Shown piece after piece: positions 25,027 to 36,050 of a stretch of 57,195 nucleotides of DNA. The notes beneath the pieces are model-generated. The model was given only the letters and a program-made list of their open reading frames with translations. It did not search any database and was not told the DNA's origin. The translations under genes and the position numbers were made by a program. The DNA is from Bacteroidales bacterium. Lineage in GTDB: Bacteria > Bacteroidota > Bacteroidia > Bacteroidales > GWA2-32-17. Each line of letters starts with the position of its first letter. Positions within the stretch are counted from its first letter, which is position 1. The stretch is from assembly GCA_013314715.1 (NCBI GenBank), contig JABUFC010000018.1:1-57195 (forward strand), given 5' to 3'.

Positions 25027-26571
25027 TTAACGACGACGACCACCACCTGAAGTACTACTTGAACTGCTACTTCTTGAATTACCAGAATTATGACTTGGTT
25101 GAGAGAACGAAGGCGTATGCGTTCTGCTGGGCTGAGAATACGAAGGACTGTGCGAAGGCTGAGAATGTGATGGAGCATTATTTCTTGAAGGTTGAGGAAC
25201 TACTTCACGATTATATGAATTATTTTCTGGTCTTCTATATTCGATAGAATTATTTTCTCTTTGCGGCTGAGAATAAGTAGGCCTACTATTATTGGGCATT
25301 TCGTTTATAGTGCGATTGGGGCGTTCGTTTGAAGGAGGAAACGATGATTGAGAAGGTCGACTTATGCCATCATTTGTTTCAGGACGTGAGTATGTTGGAC
25401 GAGCATTTGAAGGTTCAGCTAACTGGGGTCTATTATTTATGGGGCGATCGTCTAAATTATTTAATGAAGGTTGATTAGGACGAGAATTAGAAGGTTCGGA
25501 TATCTGTGGTTTATTGTTCAATGGACGATTATTCGATGGTTCTGCACCAACAGAAGGTTTAACTGGTCGTTTATTGCCATCAGAACCGGATTGCTCATTT
25601 ATAGTAGGGGTTCTTCCATTTAAAGGCTTCTGTTCAAAACCAGTTGAAGGTTGACGTTGTGCTGGTTCAATACCTTGATTAGTTGTTACGGGTTTTCTAC
25701 TATTATCTTGTATACCATTAGGATTTTGCTGAATATTTGCAGGTCTAGTTGAATTAGCAAAAGTTGGTCGACTTAATACTTCATTATGAGTTTGCTGATG
25801 ATAATTACTTACAAAACTATTGTAAGGATCTCTTCCTCTGGAACCACTCGATGAACCATCGCCTCTATGACCATAAAAAGTACCATCGTGACTATTGTAG
25901 TAGAAATTATGGGCATATGCATCGTAATATCCATCCCAATATCCATTCCAATAACCATCATGATAACCATTCCAATAGCCATGATGATAACCGTGATGAT
26001 AACCATACCATCCATAACCATAGTATCCTGCATAATAATAATATGGGTGATAGCCCCAAAAAGGATGATACCAAGGATAATAAAAACCTACTGCATAATA
26101 AGATGGATAATAATAATATTGATAAAAAGGCCACCAATGGAATCCAAAATAAATACTAATACCCCAATCCCAAGGGTCATAAGTATACCAATAAGTATTA
26201 GTATAATACGAATCGTAATAACCACAACCTATATAAGGATCGTGAAATCGGCGTAAACGAGCTGAATATTCATAATCATAATAATCATCCTTATCAAATG
26301 AATAATAATTATTCGTTACGTATTTTTCTTGCGAATCGCTGCTGGTATTTTTTTCAACATTGGCATCGCTGGTTGACATATTCGATTCATTATTTTGATA
26401 ATAAGCATCGCTTGAATTTGTTGTTTTTTCAGGAGTTGCAACAGTTTCATGCGATGAGACAGACGGCGAGCTATAAATATCGTCGCTGTATATAGCCGAT
26501 ACATGCTTTGTTGAAGAACAACTCATGAGTCCTAAGACTACGGCTGCCGATAATAATAATTTTGTTTTCAT
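25027..26571 (-). CDS. Low-complexity lipoprotein, Tyr/His/Gly-rich then Asn/Pro/Ser-rich
   Basis: The 514-residue protein begins with a lipoprotein signal (MKTKLLLSAAVVLGLMSCSS, Cys18). Residues about 100-150 carry a structured-looking segment (YDPWDWGISIYFGF). Residues about 150-215 are a striking Tyr/Trp/Gly/His array with GYHHGYW, NGYHDGYW and NGYWDGYY steps. The rest (about 225-505) is disordered and rich in Asn, Pro, Ser and Arg with repeated SRPxxxNRP and PSxSQPS units, ending in GGGRRR. No enzymatic motif is visible. A surface or matrix role is only a guess. An unusually good Shine-Dalgarno sequence precedes it. Confidence 0.75.
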   Translation of the reverse strand: MKTKLLLSAAVVLGLMSCSSTKHVSAIYSDDIYSSPSVSSHETVATPEKTTNSSDAYYQNNESNMSTSDANVEKNTSSDSQEKYVTNNYYSFDKDDYYDYEYSARLRRFHDPYIGCGYYDSYYTNTYWYTYDPWDWGISIYFGFHWWPFYQYYYYPSYYAVGFYYPWYHPFWGYHPYYYYAGYYGYGWYGYHHGYHHGYWNGYHDGYWNGYWDGYYDAYAHNFYYNSHDGTFYGHRGDGSSSGSRGRDPYNSFVSNYHQQTHNEVLSRPTFANSTRPANIQQNPNGIQDNSRKPVTTNQGIEPAQRQPSTGFEQKPLNGRTPTINEQSGSDGNKRPVKPSVGAEPSNNRPLNNKPQISEPSNSRPNQPSLNNLDDRPINNRPQLAEPSNARPTYSRPETNDGISRPSQSSFPPSNERPNRTINEMPNNSRPTYSQPQRENNSIEYRRPENNSYNREVVPQPSRNNAPSHSQPSHSPSYSQPSRTHTPSFSQPSHNSGNSRSSSSSSTSGGGRRR

Positions 26572-26667: not shown

Positions 26668-28140
26668 ATGGCAAAAGTTTTAACTCCCAAAGAACAAGAT
26701 TATGCTCAATGGTACAACGATTTGGTACTAAAAGCAGACTTAGCAGAAAATTCGTCGGTACGTGGTTGTATGGTTATCAAACCCTATGGATATTCGATAT
26801 GGGAAAAAATACAACAAACATTAGATAAAATGTTTAAAGAAACAGGACATGTAAATGCCTATTTTCCACTATTTATTCCGAAATCTTTTTTTAGTAAAGA
26901 AGCCAGCCACGTAGAAGGTTTCGCAAAAGAATGCGCAGTTATAACCCATTATAGATTAAAAAACGATCCTAAAGGCAAAGGTGTAATTGTAGACGAAGGA
27001 GCTAAACTCGAAGAAGAGCTAATTGTTCGTCCTACATCTGAAACCATTATTTGGAATACTTATAGAAACTGGATACAATCATACAGAGACCTTCCATTAC
27101 TTATAAACCAATGGGCGAATGTAGTTCGCTGGGAGATGCGAACACGTCTTTTTTTGAGAACAGCTGAATTTTTATGGCAAGAAGGGCATACGGCTCATGC
27201 CACAAAAGAAGAAGCCATGGCAGAAGCTCAACAAATGATAAATGTTTATTCAAAATTTGCAGAAGAAACGCTGGCAATACCCGTAATAAAAGGAGCTAAA
27301 TCTGAGAATGAACGATTTGCTGGCGCACTCGAAACCTTTACAATTGAAGCAATGATGCAAGACGGCAAAGCCCTCCAAGCGGGCACATCACATTTTCTGG
27401 GACAAAATTTTGCCAAAGCGTTTGATGTTAAATTTCTTAGCTCTGAAGGCAAACAAGAATATGTTTGGGCAACCTCATGGGGTGTTTCGACTCGACTTAT
27501 TGGAGCCGTGATTATGGCCCATAGCGACAACAATGGTCTTGTTTTGCCACCTAAAATTGCTCCTCTCCAAGTCGTCATTGTACCCATATATAAAAGTGAT
27601 GAAGAACGCACTAAAGTTTGTCAAGAAGGCGAAAAAATTTTTAATGAAATTAAAGCTGCAGGAATTTCGGTAAAATTTGATGATAGAGATACCCACAAGC
27701 CAGGATGGAAATTTGCCGAATATGAATTAAAAGGAGTTCCTATAAGAATTGCCATAGGACCTAAAGATATTGAAAACAATACTATAGAAGTAGCTAGAAG
27801 AGACACCTTAGAGAAAAGTATTGTGAACAGAAATGAATTATTAAACCATATTACTTCACTCATCGAAGAAATTCAAAAAAATATCTACCAAAAAGCTCTA
27901 ACTTTTAGAAATGAACATACCTACCAAGTTGATACATATGAAGAATTAAAATCAAAAATTGAAAATGGAGGCTTTTTTATGGTTCACTGGGACGGCACAA
28001 AAGAAAGCGAAAAAGTATTAAACGAAGAGCTAAAGGCAACTATTCGTTGTATTCCTTTTGATTCTATAAAAGAAAATGGCAAATGCATTATTTCAGGAAA
28101 ACCCTCTACTCAAAGAGTATTAGTAGCTAAAGCCTACTAA
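26668..28140 (+). CDS. proS: Prolyl-tRNA synthetase, archaeal/eukaryotic type
   Basis: The 490-residue class II synthetase charges tRNA-Pro. Motifs seen are [24 protein letters not shown], class II motif 2 in [36 protein letters not shown], and motif 3 around [19 protein letters not shown]. The C-terminal [20 protein letters not shown] is the zinc-type tail of this subtype. It lacks the large editing insertion of the bacterial type. This ProS form is usual in Bacteroidota. Length is normal. It has its own promoter and is divergent from the Tyr-rich lipoprotein gene. Confidence 0.96.
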
Positions 28141-28232
28141 ATATAAGCTGAATATTTTTAATAACTAAATTGAATAGTTAAGTTTTTTTTTATTAACTTT
28201 ATGGCTTGAATAATTCTTAATCAAAAGACTTA

Positions 28233-28925
28233 ATGAGCTCAACCATTTCTAAAACCAAATCGTTAATAATTAACACTTTATCAGAAAAATCTCTGGTTAA
28301 GCGATTGGTTTTAGAAGCGTACAAAGAAAGCTTCGAATTATTCAAAAATGCTATAATTCAATTAACTCAAGAATTAAATTCTGAATTTAAAAACAAATCG
28401 GTAGAACATGAGATAGAATACAATATTGGAAATTCACACATTGAGCTATACTTTGGCACTGAAGTTATTGTATTTAGTTTTCAGAACTCAATTTTTGAAA
28501 TAGACAAAGGGCATTCTATCTGGTCTCATTCGTATATTCAAGACCACCCACTTAATTCATATGTTGGGATTATTCATGTTTATAATTTTTTACGCGATTC
28601 ATACAAAAACAATCAAAATGAAGATTTAGGCTATTTGATTGCTCGCATTTTCGTAAACCAAGAAAAACATTATTTTGTTGAAGGCAAACGACAATTAGGT
28701 TTTTTATATAACGATTTTTCAACCAATGTAAGCTCAACTGAAGATTTTAAAAAAATTATTGAATCGTCTATACTCTATTGCCTCGATTTTGATATGTTAG
28801 TTCCACCCTACGAAGACGTTAGCATTATTAGTGTAGAACAAATAAAAATGATTATTAGTAAAGCCAAATTTCAATCGGCGAAACGATTAGGATTTCAATT
28901 TTATAAAAATGACACCACAGTTTAA
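28233..28925 (+). CDS. Conserved-looking cytoplasmic protein of unknown function
   Basis: The 230-residue protein has no signal peptide or membrane helix. It is mixed alpha/beta, with an N-terminal helical part (residues 1-55) and a central strand region (HIELYFGTEVIVFSFQNSIFEI). A C-terminal helix-rich part has EDFKKIIESSILYCLDF and ISVEQIKMIISKAKFQSAKRLG. I do not recognise the family. Its last codons overlap the region just before the first M49-like gene (11 bases separate its stop from the ATG at 28936), so it leads a run of co-oriented genes up to 36050. Confidence 0.65.
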   Translation: MSSTISKTKSLIINTLSEKSLVKRLVLEAYKESFELFKNAIIQLTQELNSEFKNKSVEHEIEYNIGNSHIELYFGTEVIVFSFQNSIFEIDKGHSIWSHSYIQDHPLNSYVGIIHVYNFLRDSYKNNQNEDLGYLIARIFVNQEKHYFVEGKRQLGFLYNDFSTNVSSTEDFKKIIESSILYCLDFDMLVPPYEDVSIISVEQIKMIISKAKFQSAKRLGFQFYKNDTTV

Positions 28926-28935
28926 AAATATAAAT

Positions 28936-30606
28936 ATGAAAAAGATAAAAGTATTATTAGTAGTCGGGATGGTTTCAATTACCATGTTTTTTTCGTGCAC
29001 AAATACAACTACTGAAAACAATAGCATTTCAACCGATACTGTTAGTAAGCCTAAACTTACTATTAAAGATCGTTTAAATCAGTATGCAACTTTCCCACTT
29101 GTAGTAGATTTAAGTTCATATAGTGAGCAAGAAAAAGAAATGCTTAGTTATTTAATAGATGCTTGTAAAATTATAGATGAAATTTTCTGGCGTCAAGCCT
29201 ACGGCGATAAAGACACATTGTTTAAAAAAATTAAGACTGAAGAAGAAAAAGAATTCTGCATAATAAACTATGGACCATGGGATAGAATTAACGACAACGA
29301 ACCTTTTATTGAAGGAGTTGGCAAAAAACCTTTAGGAGCAGGTTTTTATCCTCCCGATATTAAATACTTCCCATTTATCGATATGAAATTTGAAGATAAA
29401 TTAAGTATGTACACCGTAATAAAACGTGCTGAAGATGGCTCATTATATACCGAGCCTTATCATGTAGCATACAAAGATTTACTTACAAAAGCCGCCGATT
29501 ATTTAAAGAAAGCTGCACAAAAATCACCCGATAAAGCTTTTGCAAATTATTTAAATAAACGAGCCGAAAGTTTACTTACCGATGATTATTATTCAAGCGA
29601 TATTTTGTGGGTTGATTTAAATTCAAAATACGATTTAGAAATAGGTCCCTATGAATTTGAAGAAGATAAATTTATTAATACCAAAGCTGCCTACGAAGCC
29701 TATTTAATGATAAAAGATATTGAATGGAGTAAAAAATTTGAATCCTATTCATCGCATCTGCCCGAAATTAAAAACAGTTTTTCTATTCCAGAAGACTATA
29801 AAAAACAAATTGTTTTAGCCAATACCAATATTGGTGTTTTTGATGCTATATACTATGCAGGATGGCCCAATGCCGGTCCTAAACAAATATCAACCAATCG
29901 CCCTAAAGATGGCAGAATTTTAATGGAAAAAGGTAGTCGAAAGCTACAGTTCAAAAACAGTATGAAAGCAAAATTTGATAAAATATTAAAGCCCATAGCC
30001 GATGTTATTATAGCAAAAGAACAACGTACTAATGTTAAATTTGAAGGTTTTTTTATTAACAATGTAACCTACGAAATTGCCGACGCTATAATGGTTAAAA
30101 CAACTGTAAATGGCAAAGGTCCTGTGAAAGATGCACTAAAAGATTACTTCCCTACCATAAATTCATTAAAAGCCGATATACTTAATATGTACATACTTTC
30201 AAAACTACAAGAGATGAAAGTTATAACAGATGCTACCTTAGAAGATAATTATGTTATTTTTGTTGCCAATATAATACGTTCTGTTCGTTTTGGTGCTGCA
30301 TTTGCTCAAGGTTCTTCAAACATCATTGCATTTAATATGTTATATAAAATGAAAGCTTTTGAACGCGATGATGCAACAGGTACATACAAAGTAAATTTAG
30401 AAAAAATGAAAGAAGTTATTGGCAAAATTTCAAAAGATATTCTTACCGTTCTTGCCGAAGGCGACTACCCCACTGCCAAATCTTGGATTGAAATTTATGG
30501 CACCATGTCGCCCGAACTTCAAAAAGATATTGAAAAAATCAGCAAATCTGGAATACCTATCGATATTAAATTTGAACAAGGTAAAGAAGTTTTAGGTCTA
30601 AAATAA
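28936..30606 (+). CDS. M49 (dipeptidyl peptidase III)-like lipoprotein lacking zinc ligands
   Basis: The 556-residue protein begins MKKIKVLLVVGMVSITMFFSC, a lipoprotein signal (Cys21). It aligns over its whole mature length with the next gene product (DILWVDLNS versus DMAWMDLKD, IEWSKKFE versus IEWSKKLA, GSRKLQFKN versus GSRKLQLKN). Where the neighbour has the metal site HEVAHG, this protein has YEIADA (Tyr379, Glu380, Asp383). Where the neighbour has LEEAKAD, it has INSLKAD. All three expected zinc ligands are therefore gone while the fold appears intact and the frame is open. It looks like a pseudoenzyme, perhaps a binding or regulatory partner. The ATG at 28936 puts the lipoprotein signal at the N-terminus; an ATG nine codons upstream is less likely. 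Confidence 0.8.
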   Translation: MKKIKVLLVVGMVSITMFFSCTNTTTENNSISTDTVSKPKLTIKDRLNQYATFPLVVDLSSYSEQEKEMLSYLIDACKIIDEIFWRQAYGDKDTLFKKIKTEEEKEFCIINYGPWDRINDNEPFIEGVGKKPLGAGFYPPDIKYFPFIDMKFEDKLSMYTVIKRAEDGSLYTEPYHVAYKDLLTKAADYLKKAAQKSPDKAFANYLNKRAESLLTDDYYSSDILWVDLNSKYDLEIGPYEFEEDKFINTKAAYEAYLMIKDIEWSKKFESYSSHLPEIKNSFSIPEDYKKQIVLANTNIGVFDAIYYAGWPNAGPKQISTNRPKDGRILMEKGSRKLQFKNSMKAKFDKILKPIADVIIAKEQRTNVKFEGFFINNVTYEIADAIMVKTTVNGKGPVKDALKDYFPTINSLKADILNMYILSKLQEMKVITDATLEDNYVIFVANIIRSVRFGAAFAQGSSNIIAFNMLYKMKAFERDDATGTYKVNLEKMKEVIGKISKDILTVLAEGDYPTAKSWIEIYGTMSPELQKDIEKISKSGIPIDIKFEQGKEVLGLK

Positions 30607-30616
30607 TAACAAGCTT

Positions 30617-32527
30617 ATGAAAAATATTGCACCTTTCGTTACTTTATTAGTAATGATACTATTTTCGTGTTCAGAAAATAAAAATGAATCGGTTGATATG
30701 AACCAAACATATTACGGTAGCTACTTTATCATGAATAATGATAATAAAATGATTGAAAATGATATAAATGTTATTATTCAAAAAGATAGCATCCAACTTT
30801 TTGAAAACGATTCTTTAATTCTTCATCAAAAATTCCAAATAAATAAACAAAACAACGATACTATTCAACTGAATATACCTCAACAGCCATTTGAAATAAA
30901 ATATATAAAATCGAACCATAGTTTAATTGTAAAAGGATACAACAACAATAATTTTACTCTTTTAACTTATTCTGACCTTATGAAGAAAAAAGTTGATGAG
31001 TATGCTGTAGTAAAGTTGACAGCCAATATTAGCCATTTAAGTGAAAAAGACAAAGCATTACTCAACAAACTTTTTGATATCGCCCCCATAATGGACGAAT
31101 TATTTTGGGAACAAGTTTGTCCACAAAAAGACAGTTTATTAAACTCCATTTCTGACGAAAATGCTAAACGCTTTTTTATTATCAATTATGGGCCATACGA
31201 ACATCTTCGAAATAATAAACCATTTATAGATGGTGTTCCTCCACATTCAGACAGAATGACTTTCTATCCACAAGATATGACCGTAGATGAATTTGAAAAA
31301 TGGAATAATCCCGATAAAACAAACTGGTACACTATTATTCGCAGAAACGACAAAGGCGAACTCATAAGCATACCTTATTCTGAATTTTATAAAGAAAAAT
31401 TAAGCAAAGCAGCACAAATGCTAGATGAAGCTGCAACACTTTCTGAGAATAAATTATTTGCTAATTACTTAAAAGAAAAAGCCCAATCGTTCCGCACCAA
31501 CAACTACTTTCCAAGTGATATGGCATGGATGGATTTAAAAGATAATACACTCGATTTTGTTATTGGTCCTACCGAAAGCTATAACGATGGATTGTTTGGT
31601 TATAAAACATCTTTCGAATCGTTTATACTTCTAAAAGATATAGAATGGAGTAAAAAGCTTGCTCATTTTGTTGAATTATTACCTCAAATTCAGTCAAATC
31701 TTCCTGTTGATGAAGCTTACAAACAAGAAAAACCAGCAAAGAACAACGATTTAGGTGTATATGAAGCATTGTATTACGCTGGCGATTGTAATGCCGGTAG
31801 TAAAACTATAGCCATAAATCTCCCAAACGACAAAAAAGTAAACGAATTGAAAGGCAGCCGAAAACTTCAACTAAAAAATATCATGCAAGCAAAGTTTGAA
31901 CATATACTAAAACCTATTGCACAACAAGTTATTGACGAAAGTCAATTAACTAATATTAATTTTGACGCTTTTTTTGAAAATGTAATGTTTCACGAAGTTG
32001 CTCACGGCTTAGGTATTAGTAAAACCATAAAAGATAAAAAATTAGTTACCGATATTTTAAAAGACACCCATACATCACTCGAAGAAGCAAAGGCCGATAT
32101 TGTTGGTTTATATATTGTAACATGGTTATACGACCATAAGCAAATAACCGAACATGCATTATTAGATAACTATGTTACCTTTTTAGCCGGCATTTTCCGT
32201 TCAGTTCGTTTTGGTGCATCGAGCGCCCATGGAAAAGCCAATATGATTGAATTTAATTATTTAAACGAAAAAGGTGCCTTTGTTTTTAATGAACAAAAAG
32301 GGAAATACACCGTTCAACTAAATAAAATGCGTGAAGCTGTGGCTAGCTTAGCTAATTTAATTCTCACCACTCAAGGCAATGGCGATTACATAGGTGCAAA
32401 AGAAATTCTAAAAAATATGGCAGTTGTAAAACCACAATTACAAAATAGTTTGTCTAAAATAGCAGCAGCTGGTATTCCACGTGATATTGTCTTTGAACAA
32501 GGTAAACATTTGCTTGGATTACAATAA
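30617..32527 (+). CDS. M49 (dipeptidyl peptidase III)-like zinc peptidase lipoprotein
   Basis: The 636-residue protein begins with a lipoprotein signal (MKNIAPFVTLLVMILFSC, Cys18). Residues about 20-115 are a beta-rich extension absent from its neighbour. The catalytic region has His459-Glu460-x-x-His463 in HEVAHGLG and a second acidic segment LEEAKADIVG (Glu489/Glu490, Asp494). The five-residue HExxHG form is that of the Nudix-associated M49 branch rather than classical DPP III (HELLGH). It probably removes dipeptides or cuts small peptides at the periplasmic face of a membrane. It starts 10 bases after the inactive paralogue and precedes a TonB receptor, suggesting linked uptake. Confidence 0.85.
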   Translation: MKNIAPFVTLLVMILFSCSENKNESVDMNQTYYGSYFIMNNDNKMIENDINVIIQKDSIQLFENDSLILHQKFQINKQNNDTIQLNIPQQPFEIKYIKSNHSLIVKGYNNNNFTLLTYSDLMKKKVDEYAVVKLTANISHLSEKDKALLNKLFDIAPIMDELFWEQVCPQKDSLLNSISDENAKRFFIINYGPYEHLRNNKPFIDGVPPHSDRMTFYPQDMTVDEFEKWNNPDKTNWYTIIRRNDKGELISIPYSEFYKEKLSKAAQMLDEAATLSENKLFANYLKEKAQSFRTNNYFPSDMAWMDLKDNTLDFVIGPTESYNDGLFGYKTSFESFILLKDIEWSKKLAHFVELLPQIQSNLPVDEAYKQEKPAKNNDLGVYEALYYAGDCNAGSKTIAINLPNDKKVNELKGSRKLQLKNIMQAKFEHILKPIAQQVIDESQLTNINFDAFFENVMFHEVAHGLGISKTIKDKKLVTDILKDTHTSLEEAKADIVGLYIVTWLYDHKQITEHALLDNYVTFLAGIFRSVRFGASSAHGKANMIEFNYLNEKGAFVFNEQKGKYTVQLNKMREAVASLANLILTTQGNGDYIGAKEILKNMAVVKPQLQNSLSKIAAAGIPRDIVFEQGKHLLGLQ

Positions 32528-32567
32528 TTGAACACATAACACGTTATTGCAAAATAATCAATCCATA

Positions 32568-35003
32568 ATGAAGCTTATTGTAAGCATTATTTTTATTTTA
32601 TTTAATATCGTTGTACTTGCCCAACCATATTTACTTAAAGGAAAAATAACAAACAAAGATTACCAAGCACTCGATAATGTAAACATATTTATAAAAGAAA
32701 CACCTAATGTAGGTACTAGCACTGACATAAAAGGTAATTTTGAACTTAAAATTAAAGATGCAGGCACCTATACATTAAAATTTTCACACTTAGAATATAT
32801 AGATACCACCATTATAGTTAACATTCCTAATATTACTTTTTTAAGATTAATTTTACAAGAAAAAATAGAAAATTTGCCACAGCTCACCGTTAATGCAAAT
32901 CAAAACAAAGAAAACAATATCGAAAAATTAAATCCTAAATTAGTAAACATTATACCCGACGCTTCAGGTGGTATTGAAGCTACACTAAAAACGATGCCAG
33001 GTGTTAGCAAAACCAATGAACTAAGTTCGCAATATTCGGTTAGAGGTGGTAATTTCGACGAGAACCTCGTTTATGTTAACCAAATAGAAGTATATCGTCC
33101 AACTCTTATTCGTAGCGGTCAACAAGAGGGTTTAAGTTTTGTAAACCCCGATATGGTATCAAATATCTACTTCTCAGCTGGTGGTTTCGATGCTAAATAT
33201 GGTGATAAAATGTCTTCGGTACTTGATATTCAATACAAAAAGCCCATTCAACACGGGGCACATTTTACTGCTAGCCTATTAGGCACATCATTTACTCTGG
33301 AAAACAGCAGTAAAAACCATCGTTTCACTCATATTAGCGGGTTTCGTTATAAAACTTCGCAATATTTATTAAATTCTCTTGACACAAAAGGCGATTATAA
33401 GCCACGTTTTTTTGACTATCAAACATATATTACCTACGACATAAACGAAAACAACGAATTAAGCTTTTTAGGCAACATTGCACAAAACCATTATCGCTTT
33501 ATTCCACAAACCCGCGAAACCTCGTTTGGTACAATCGACGAAGCATTAAAATTAAAAATCTATTTTGATGGCCAAGAAAGCGATAAATACACTACTTCGC
33601 TGGGAGCCATTTCGTTAACTTCACGCCCATCGGAAAAAACAAAGTTATCATATACAATTTCTGTCTATTATACAGACGAACAAGAACGATACGATATACT
33701 AGGACAATATTTTTTAAATGAGCTCGACAAACAACTAGGCTCTAATTCTATGGGCGATAGTTTGATGAATATTGGAGTTGGTACTTTTTTAAATCATGCA
33801 CGAAATTATTTAACATCAACTATTTTATCGCTTCAACATACAGGTTCTCAAAAGTTAGATGACAATAAAATAATTATATGGGGAATTAATGGACAACATG
33901 AAAAAACAAACGATAATTTACATGAATGGGTAATGATAGACTCAGCAGGGTACTCTATTCCTTATACCGACTCTATTGTGGGCATTTACTCATTAATTTA
34001 CGGGAAAAACCAACTTCAGCAAACAAAAGCTTCAGCTTTTGCACAATATTCAAATAAAATTAATTTCGACAGCACGTCTTTATCTTATACCTTTGGCATT
34101 AGAACAACCTACTCCAGTTATTCTGATCAAATTTTATTAAGTCCAAGAGCATCGTTTATATTTCATCCCAACTGGCGAAGAAACATAAATTTTAAATTTT
34201 CTACAGGATATTATTATCAACCACTTTCGTATAAGGAAGTTCGTTTAATCAATGGTGCTATAAATTATCATTTAATTGCACAACAAAGTATTCATTTTGT
34301 TTTAGGTAGCGACTATAATTTTACAGCTTGGAATCGTTCATTTCGTTATATCAGCGAATTGTTTTACAAACGATACAATCATTTAATTCCTTACCAAATC
34401 GAAAATGTACGAATTCAGTATTTAGGTCATAATAATGCGATTGGTTATGCTGTTGGCTTAGACATGAAAGTAAATGGTGAATTTGTTCCGGGTGTAGAAT
34501 CGTGGGTTAGTTTATCCTTATTAAAAACCCAAGAAGATATTATAGACGATTTTTATTACAAAAATATCGATGGTCAATTTACACGCGTTGAACCCGGTTA
34601 TATTCCTAGACCAACGGATCAACTCATCAATTTAGGTTTGTTTTTTCAAGATTACTTACCCATGGACCCTACTTATACCATGCAACTTAGTTTATTATTC
34701 GGCAGTGGGCTCCCTTTTGGACCTCCCAAATCTGAACGCTACGAAGCAACCTACCGTATGCCCCCTTATCGACGAGTAGATATTGGATTTTCAAAAATTT
34801 TAAAATCCCCAGAACAAGAAATAAATTATGGCATCCTAAAATATTTTGATAAACTCTGGATTGGTTTAGAGGTTTTTAATTTACTCGATATTGACAATAC
34901 CATTTCTTATCAATGGGTTAGCGATATCAGAGGGCACGAATACGCGGTCCCCAATTATTTATCATCTCGACGTTTAAATATAAAGATAATTGCATCTTTT
35001 TAA
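32568..35003 (+). CDS. TonB-dependent receptor with carboxypeptidase-regulatory-like domain
   Basis: The 811-residue protein has a signal peptide (MKLIVSIIFILFNIVVLAQ) and a beta-sandwich domain (LKGKITNKDYQALDNVNIFI, about residues 22-110). The plug has TMPGVSKTNELSSQYSVRGG and NVYFSAGG-like elements (NIYFSAGGFDAKYGDKMSS). The barrel ends RLNIKIIASF with a C-terminal Phe. This receptor type is widespread in Bacteroidota, and its ligand is not predictable here. Sitting 40 bases after the M49-like pair, it may import peptides or another product, which is inference. An upstream in-frame TTG (32547) is less likely than the ATG at 32568. Confidence 0.88.
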   Translation: MKLIVSIIFILFNIVVLAQPYLLKGKITNKDYQALDNVNIFIKETPNVGTSTDIKGNFELKIKDAGTYTLKFSHLEYIDTTIIVNIPNITFLRLILQEKIENLPQLTVNANQNKENNIEKLNPKLVNIIPDASGGIEATLKTMPGVSKTNELSSQYSVRGGNFDENLVYVNQIEVYRPTLIRSGQQEGLSFVNPDMVSNIYFSAGGFDAKYGDKMSSVLDIQYKKPIQHGAHFTASLLGTSFTLENSSKNHRFTHISGFRYKTSQYLLNSLDTKGDYKPRFFDYQTYITYDINENNELSFLGNIAQNHYRFIPQTRETSFGTIDEALKLKIYFDGQESDKYTTSLGAISLTSRPSEKTKLSYTISVYYTDEQERYDILGQYFLNELDKQLGSNSMGDSLMNIGVGTFLNHARNYLTSTILSLQHTGSQKLDDNKIIIWGINGQHEKTNDNLHEWVMIDSAGYSIPYTDSIVGIYSLIYGKNQLQQTKASAFAQYSNKINFDSTSLSYTFGIRTTYSSYSDQILLSPRASFIFHPNWRRNINFKFSTGYYYQPLSYKEVRLINGAINYHLIAQQSIHFVLGSDYNFTAWNRSFRYISELFYKRYNHLIPYQIENVRIQYLGHNNAIGYAVGLDMKVNGEFVPGVESWVSLSLLKTQEDIIDDFYYKNIDGQFTRVEPGYIPRPTDQLINLGLFFQDYLPMDPTYTMQLSLLFGSGLPFGPPKSERYEATYRMPPYRRVDIGFSKILKSPEQEINYGILKYFDKLWIGLEVFNLLDIDNTISYQWVSDIRGHEYAVPNYLSSRRLNIKIIASF

Positions 35004-35015
35004 AAAAGAATTATT

Positions 35016-36050
35016 ATGGAAAAAACTCCTATTTCTAAACTTGGCGAATTTAAATTGATTGAACATCTTACAAAAGACACACCCCATTTTCATAAAGAGA
35101 CCCTAAAAGGCATTGGCGACGATGCTGCTGTAATTTCGGTATCAAAAGGGAAAAAAATATTAGTTACTACTGATTTATTAGTAGAGGGCATTCATTTTAA
35201 TTTAGTATATACTCCATTAAAACACTTAGGCTATAAAGCTGTTGCGGTTAATTTATCTGATATTGCTGCCATGAATGGTACTCCTAAGCAAATAACAGTA
35301 TCGATAGCCATATCTTCTAAATTTTCAGTTGAATCTTTAGAAGAGCTATATGCTGGTATTTATGCTGCTTGTAATAAATATAATGTAGACCTGATTGGAG
35401 GCGATACTACTAGCAGCCTAACCGGCATGCTAATTTCGATAACTGCTATTGGTGAAGCATCAGAAGATGAAATTGTATATAGAAACGGAGCAAAAATAGA
35501 TGATATGATATGTGTTTCTGGCGATTTAGGTGCCTCATATTTAGGACTACAATTACTCGAACGCGAATATAAAATGTTTAAAGATAATCCTAAGGTTCAG
35601 CCCGATTTTAGTGGAAAAGATTATTTATTACAACGACAATTAAAGCCAGAGCCGCGTTTTGATATTTTAAAAATATTCAAAGAAGCTGGAATTAAACCCA
35701 ACTCAATGATAGACATTTCGGACGGTTTAAGCTCTGAATTAAATCATATATGCAAACAATCGAATGTGGGCGCTAAAATATATAATCATAAGATCCCTAT
35801 CGATGCTATAACAGCTTTAACTGCTGAAGAATTTAATATGTCGCCTGAAACAGCAGCATTACACGGTGGCGAAGATTATGAATTGTTATTTACCGTTTCG
35901 CCCGAACATCTTAATAAACTTTTAAATATAAAAGACATTAGCATATTAGGTCAAATAACCGAAGCACATGAAGGCATAAAATTAAAACTGCAAGGTGGTA
36001 GTGAAGTAGATTTAGCTGCAAAAGGATGGTTAGCATTTGGTGAACCTTAA
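35016..36050 (+). CDS. thiL: Thiamine-monophosphate kinase
   Basis: The 344-residue protein has the ThiL/AIR-synthase fold motifs: ISKLGEFKLIEHL, KGIGDDAAVI, TTDLLVEGIHF, AVAVNLSDIAAMNG, DLIGGDTTSS, SGDLGASYLGLQLL and IDISDGLSSELNHI. It phosphorylates thiamine monophosphate to thiamine diphosphate with ATP in the cytoplasm. No other thiamine gene or TPP riboswitch is visible nearby. It follows the TonB receptor by 12 bases and its stop overlaps the convergent ribF stop by 4 bases. Confidence 0.95.
   Translation: MEKTPISKLGEFKLIEHLTKDTPHFHKETLKGIGDDAAVISVSKGKKILVTTDLLVEGIHFNLVYTPLKHLGYKAVAVNLSDIAAMNGTPKQITVSIAISSKFSVESLEELYAGIYAACNKYNVDLIGGDTTSSLTGMLISITAIGEASEDEIVYRNGAKIDDMICVSGDLGASYLGLQLLEREYKMFKDNPKVQPDFSGKDYLLQRQLKPEPRFDILKIFKEAGIKPNSMIDISDGLSSELNHICKQSNVGAKIYNHKIPIDAITALTAEEFNMSPETAALHGGEDYELLFTVSPEHLNKLLNIKDISILGQITEAHEGIKLKLQGGSEVDLAAKGWLAFGEP

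Follow-up and report, generated by a model that had tools for sequence, protein, structure and literature searches.

The window analyzed here is a stretch of 57,195 nucleotides (contig JABUFC010000018.1 of assembly GCA_013314715.1) from a Bacteroidales bacterium of the family GWA2-32-17. Two successive genes on its forward strand encode homologs of the M49 dipeptidyl peptidases, the family of dipeptidyl peptidase III (DPP III). The upstream protein, P0001, has lost most of the residues needed for catalysis, and the downstream protein, P0002, has them all. An original prediction, made from the sequence alone, had described the two as tandem M49-like lipoproteins, one with a zinc site and one a likely pseudoenzyme kept beside it. 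The tandem is real: both frames are open, and the alignment of their products spans 515 residues with 42% identity. The two genes and their distinguishing features are as follows.

28936-30606, + strand: P0001, predicted inactive M49 (DPP III-fold) lipoprotein of 556 amino acids, recognized by its open frame, lipobox cysteine (C21), homology, and fold
29659-29661, + strand: Glu242 of P0001, replacing the Tyr318 equivalent (human numbering)
30070-30087, + strand: YEIADA of P0001 (residues 379-384), replacing HEVAHG; both zinc His gone
30157-30177, + strand: INSLKAD of P0001 (residues 408-414), replacing LEEAKAD; zinc-ligand Glu changed to Ser410
30307-30309, + strand: Gln458 of P0001, replacing the catalytic His568 equivalent (human numbering)
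30617-32527, + strand: P0002, active-type M49 lipoprotein of 636 amino acids, recognized by PF03571, a phmmer match to 6eom, and complete catalytic residues
30689-30967, + strand: extra N-terminal domain of P0002 (residues about 25-117), with strands in the model
31991-32008, + strand: HEVAHG of P0002
32078-32098, + strand: LEEAKAD of P0002

Catalytic residues and fold

The replacement of HEVAHG with YEIADA and of LEEAKAD with INSLKAD had been foreseen in the prediction. It had also held that both histidines and both glutamates were lost, which proved correct for the two zinc histidines and the zinc-ligand glutamate but not for the general-base Glu of the HExxH motif, which P0001 retains (Glu380, in Y-E-I-A-D). 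Two further losses were absent from that account, namely, those of the catalytic His568 equivalent (now Gln458) and the Tyr318 equivalent (now Glu242). At the position of the substrate-anchoring Asn394, P0001 has a Lys. We take the human DPP III numbers for the two zinc motifs to be His450, His455, Glu507, and Glu508, and Glu451 is likewise a human number. P0002 is complete for every catalytic residue checked (HEVAHG, EEAKAD, His538, Tyr322, Asn401, and Asn404) and, judged by these residues, would be an active-type M49 enzyme. Since all 107 reference rows of the active type carry the expected residue at all ten positions compared (E, Y, N, N, H, E, H, E, E, H), the losses in P0001 are not due to chance. 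According to passages in PMC5805324, the DPP III reaction needs zinc held by two His and a second Glu; because this coordination is missing, catalysis of the known type would not be expected of P0001.

Despite these losses, P0001 retains the two-lobed DPP III fold in its model. Searches with phmmer matched both proteins to the DPP III structure 6eom, with E values of 4.1e-93 for P0001 and 5.6e-119 for P0002, and the AlphaFold models had mean predicted local distance difference test (pLDDT) scores of 92.5 and 90.4, respectively. Superposition of the P0001 model on 6eom covered 509 residues (1.9 Å, 37% identity; Z = 47.3, VIA-align). P0002 matched the Pfam family PF03571 (E = 8.8e-18), and no Pfam family matched P0001 at E values up to 0.1. 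P0002 also has about 85 additional N-terminal residues relative to P0001, and a Foldseek search with this extra domain gave nothing firm, only lipocalin-like rows at E values above 1. Such residues are present in five of nine family genomes (those of the window's genus, plus G004 with a similar one) and in G155, a genome of another family whose active copy has a long N terminus (670 amino acids).

Distribution, ancestry, and constraint of the inactive copy

Nine of the 10 genomes of the window's family have both copies, and the tenth is only 74% complete. The inactive copy was also found in 16 genomes of seven other families (G269, G073, G165, G331, G391, G261, G155, G349, G198, G285, G097, G351, G289, G105, G205, and G018), for a total of 25 genomes of eight families, with the frame open in every one. 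Within the order, it is present in at least 22 of 393 genomes (6 of the window's family and the 16 others), a lower bound, as the motifs were read in fetched loci and several genomes with two matches, such as G045, G074, G178, and G270, were left out. No further inactive copies came from a search of 395 phylum genomes at a strict threshold that would miss divergent ones. A phylum search of 385 genomes gave 42 with a match at E values up to 1e-170; apart from the window's own match, the 29 strongest were all of the active type, and the motif reading did not extend to 12 of the 42.

The 25 inactive rows share a residue signature. The position of the first zinc His is always aromatic (Tyr in 22, Phe in 2, Trp in 1), the Glu of HExxH is always kept, the second zinc His is always lost (Asp in 12, Glu in 5, Asn in 4, Ser in 4), and the catalytic His568 equivalent is always Gln. 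The Tyr318 equivalent is kept in three rows, and the Glu that forms the third zinc ligand is lost in 18. Because this ligand survives in some members, the losses look ordered, with both zinc-binding His and the catalytic one going before the third ligand. Glu380, Arg451, and Gln458 are fixed in all 25 rows and Tyr379 is mostly fixed, while flanking positions vary. Within the window's family, the former HExxH, EExxAD, and NLPND stretches stand at the 82nd, 95th, and 95th conservation percentiles, and the other two active-site stretches stand at the 65th and 52nd.

To place the two copies, we built a tree of 25 inactive rows, 34 active rows, and two solved DPP III outgroup rows, with the active-site columns removed. 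The inactive rows formed one clade (bootstrap/Shimodaira-Hasegawa-like approximate likelihood ratio test, 100/100) that was recovered in 100% of 200 bootstrap trees. In an earlier set (18 inactive and 107 active rows), forcing the two kinds of copy from the family into one group cost 79 log-likelihood units and was rejected by the approximately unbiased test (P = 0.00119). A local tandem duplication specific to the family is thereby rejected, and the copies also lie in different parts of the trees. Given the single inactive clade and this rejection, the tandem pair is, by phylogeny, two old paralogs and not a recent copy.

We estimated the ratio of nonsynonymous to synonymous substitution rates (dN/dS) by the Nei-Gojobori method. 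For comparing the copies within the window's family, usable values came from three overlapping pairs among G007, G008, and G009, which belong to one genus; other pairs were saturated at synonymous sites. For the inactive and the active copy, respectively, dN/dS was 0.055 and 0.066 (G008/G009), 0.071 and 0.089 (G007/G009), and 0.079 and 0.095 (G007/G008). The family subtrees were of similar length (3.20 for the inactive copy and 3.55 for the active copy), with core conservation of 0.65 and 0.66. Between G097 and G198, two genomes of one genus that have no active copy, dN/dS of the inactive copy was 0.164. The inactive gene is under purifying selection wherever this could be measured.

These values bear on the idea that P0001 is a decaying duplicate, i.e., a recent tandem copy drifting neutrally. 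The loss of catalytic residues and the missing Pfam match would fit such a gene. However, its dN/dS of 0.055 to 0.079 rejects neutral decay for the window's family, the frame is open in all 25 rows, and the inactive copies form one ancient clade that did not arise by duplication within the family. Inactivation unique to the window's genome is rejected as well, since relatives in the family and the order carry the same losses. We regard decay as extremely improbable. The original prediction of a kept pseudoenzyme was thus upheld: the inactivation is common to eight families and not confined to one genome, nine of the 10 family genomes share the pair, and dN/dS is nowhere near 1 in the three pairs compared.

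Gene neighborhood and proposed role

In the window, P0001 and P0002 lie between a prolyl-tRNA synthetase gene and a conserved gene that we call hyp230 on one side and genes for a TonB-dependent receptor and a ThiL-like protein on the other, all on the + strand.

26668-28140, + strand: prolyl-tRNA synthetase
28233-28925, + strand: hyp230, conserved protein of 230 amino acids with no assigned family, ending 10 bases before P0001
about 32568-35003, + strand: TonB-dependent receptor with CarboxypepD-reg and plug domains
35016-36050, + strand: gene presumably ThiL-like from its sequence

From hyp230 through P0001, P0002, and the TonB receptor to the ThiL-like gene, the intergenic gaps are about 10, 10, 40, and 12 bases, and a terminator scan of 28100-32700 found no terminator-like site. 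With gaps this short and no terminator in that region, it is plausible that the five genes lie on a single transcript, and the family's inactive copy is probably cotranscribed with the active M49 enzyme and the TonB receptor. For hyp230, we found no Pfam match above the cutoff and no usable family in a PDB profile search. It has an invariant core around VEGKRQ. In several families of Bacteroidales it follows prolyl-tRNA synthetase and is itself often followed directly by an M49 gene, with relatives at L105, L106, L107, L108, L110, L111, L163, L160, L157, L010, and L011. On the opposite strand, at 25027-26571, a protein of 514 amino acids has a lipobox and an extreme excess of Tyr, Gly, and His, followed by one of Ser, Asn, and Pro; each of the nine family genomes has a relative next to prolyl-tRNA synthetase.

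In each of those nine genomes, the inactive copy directly precedes the active one behind prolyl-tRNA synthetase and hyp230. Elsewhere, the slot right behind these two genes holds the inactive copy in G155 and an active copy in G165 and at L011. This suggests that a tandem stood here long ago and that lineages resolved it in different ways. In G349, the active copy lies near the two genes, with two other frames between.

The tandem invites the reading that the inactive protein regulates the active enzyme or helps it assemble, forming a heterodimer with it in the window's family like the inactive alpha subunit of mitochondrial processing peptidase (MPP), a precedent described in PMC11266112. Same-strand genes only 10 bases apart with no terminator-like site between them, the recurrence of the pair across the family, the similar subtree lengths, and an active copy in 22 of the 25 genomes with the inactive one are all consistent with a partnership. 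Three genomes nevertheless have the inactive copy alone (G097, 98% complete, and G198 and G018, both 88%), with the active copy searched for as a match to its subtype at E values up to 1e-5, so the constant accompaniment expected of an MPP-like pair does not hold. The value of 0.164 between G097 and G198 likewise argues against a partner role. Outside the family, 13 genomes have both copies, and in none of them are the two adjacent, as far as the fragmented contigs show; they lie on different contigs except in G289, where they are about 1 Mb apart on one contig, and the inactive copy of G391 is at a contig start. To the same extent, adjacency is limited to the window's family. Finally, the active copy is a lipoprotein in only five of the nine family genomes; in the other four, it has a plain signal peptide without a lipobox and lacks the N-terminal extra residues. 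A partner role seems to us rather unlikely. When other Bacteroidota were examined for an adjacent active/inactive pair, as had been suggested with the prediction, the pair recurred across the family but, as far as contigs show, not beyond it; the 13 split genomes and the three with the inactive copy only speak against a fixed partnership.

The prediction had also raised a possible coupling of the pair to uptake, and here gene order gave some support. The TonB receptor comes next after the active copy in seven of the eight family genomes with a readable contig (G004 has other genes there), and the active copy of G155 stands beside a related TonB receptor. The repeated order of inactive copy, active copy, and receptor raises the question of whether P0001 is the receptor's substrate-capture subunit. 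Against this, the related receptor of G155 accompanies the active copy and not the inactive one, which lies elsewhere, and P0001 has no published surface-export signal after its lipobox cysteine; we find such a role quite improbable. Outside the family, the active M49 gene lies next to, and in divergent orientation from, a receptor gene with CarboxypepD-reg domains (L200, 7072-11754; L157, 29-4285), and these receptors are 50% (G155) and just 19% (G349) identical to that of the window.

P0001 and P0002 have the lipoboxes FFSC and LFSC, with the residues after the +1 cysteine reading C-TNTTTE and C-SENKNE, respectively. Every one of the 25 inactive rows has a Cys near the N terminus; the residue before it is the usual Ser, Ala, or Gly in 22 rows and Gln or Asn in the other 3. 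The Bacteroidota surface-export signals given in passages of PMC5080379 (K-(D/E)2, Q-A-(D/E)2, SDDDD, and SDDFE) occur in neither protein, although the host's own signal may differ. The lack of a published signal would favor the periplasmic side for both.

We propose, with a probability of roughly 45%, that P0001 is a conserved pseudopeptidase, a lipid-anchored clamshell that would face the periplasm and bind a ligand without cutting it. In this account, an M49 dipeptidyl peptidase was duplicated long ago in Bacteroidales, and one duplicate would have lost zinc and catalysis and kept the two-lobed DPP III fold. Its cleft would have been remodeled, with an aromatic-Glu-x-x-polar motif, Gln for the catalytic His, and the Asn394 equivalent replaced in every member. 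Because the fold is kept, the Glu and the Gln are fixed, and the anchor for the substrate N terminus is lost, this cleft may hold something uncut, most likely a peptide, though not bound in the old way by its N terminus. The lipid anchor would probably lie in the outer membrane, on its periplasmic side. In the window's family, the protein may serve the same peptide-handling step as the active M49 enzyme and the TonB receptor. A role beyond that of a subunit of this enzyme is probable, since constraint persists without an active partner, as one genus shows.

Several observations weigh against this proposal. The Asn394 equivalent is kept in none of the 25 rows (Lys in 10) and the Asn391 equivalent in 15 (for the human numbering of Glu316 and Asn391, see passages in PMC5805324); with the substrate anchors partly lost, the ligand may not be a peptide. 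The third zinc-ligand Glu survives in 7 of the 25. Across all rows, the HExxH and EExxAD stretches are only at the 28th and 23rd percentiles of windows, and the other three active-site stretches are at the 52nd to 81st. In family f97, the proportion of nonsynonymous differences (pN) was higher in the inactive copy (0.146 for G351/G289 and 0.139 for G105/G205) than in the active copy (0.116 and 0.097), which speaks against equal constraint of the two copies there; dN/dS of the active copy was 0.092 and 0.057, and the inactive copies were saturated (proportion of synonymous differences [pS] above 0.75). The tandem order in nine of nine family genomes would also fit a partner of the active enzyme, and the published export signals come from work on other species of Bacteroidota.

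A bolder version, which we consider rather unlikely, is that the DPP III clamshell has become a novel protein of the periplasm, either binding or catalytic, that no longer depends on its peptidase parent and is built around a zinc-free site on the invariant Glu and Gln. The window's family would then keep receptor-type and peptidase-type copies beside a TonB importer as a unit that binds, cuts, and imports.

Comparison with known systems

Among characterized proteins, the DPP III of Caldithrix abyssi (6eom, with the pentapeptide HEISH) resembles P0001 in fold and length, but P0001 has none of its zinc ligands (two His and a Glu) and neither the catalytic His nor the Tyr. In molecular dynamics reported in PMC5805324, Asn324 of 6eom anchors the substrate N terminus, and P0001 has Lys at that position. 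The Corallococcus DPP III (5zum, HELMH and EEAKAD) shares the fold as well. It was solved as a closed dimer, according to passages in PMC9820243, and dimers of this subtype therefore exist. In contrast to P0001, which is without both His and the Glu of the second motif, the Corallococcus protein is active, with four key residues said to be confirmed by mutagenesis.

A DPP III fold can also serve a reaction other than peptide cleavage. PolE (DUF6421; 9j2e and 9j3g), an oxidase described in PMC12614342 as a desaturase using Fe and pterin, has this fold without a peptidase role and appeared in both of our structure comparisons (Z = 20.0 over 337 residues). By this precedent, P0001 could have been retooled, its kept Glu and new aromatic, polar, and Gln residues forming a different active or metal site, and the invariance of Glu380, Arg451, and Gln458 would agree with that. 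However, PolE binds metal through two His and a Glu (motif HE/DxxH...E), and no inactive row has a His at the HExxH positions or at any of the three catalytic His positions. Positions 383, 409, and 410 vary across the clade, and the neighboring genes suggest no reaction. We consider retooling unlikely.

A known case of a dead peptidase beside a live paralog is the MPP alpha subunit, which belongs to a different family (M16B). The main text of the review PMC11266112 contains no occurrence of "M49" or "dipeptidyl." Our literature search found no conserved inactive M49 branch; nearest was An01g02980 of Aspergillus niger, an M49 homolog without HEXXXH in a degradome list (PMC7804941), which we liken to P0001 by its description and not its sequence. 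It is a single fungal gene, and the passages on it mention neither conservation nor a role. Dead metallopeptidases are thus already known, and a conserved inactive M49 clade is new relative to the literature searched. In Bacteroidales, M49 homology alone is no basis for annotating dipeptidyl peptidase activity. With its tandem pairs, split pairs, and genomes that have only the dead copy, the clade provides ready controls for whether a dead peptidase needs a live partner. What dead peptidases do in general becomes testable within one family, on a branch that is old and constrained and for which the DPP III enzymes are a well-studied counterpart.

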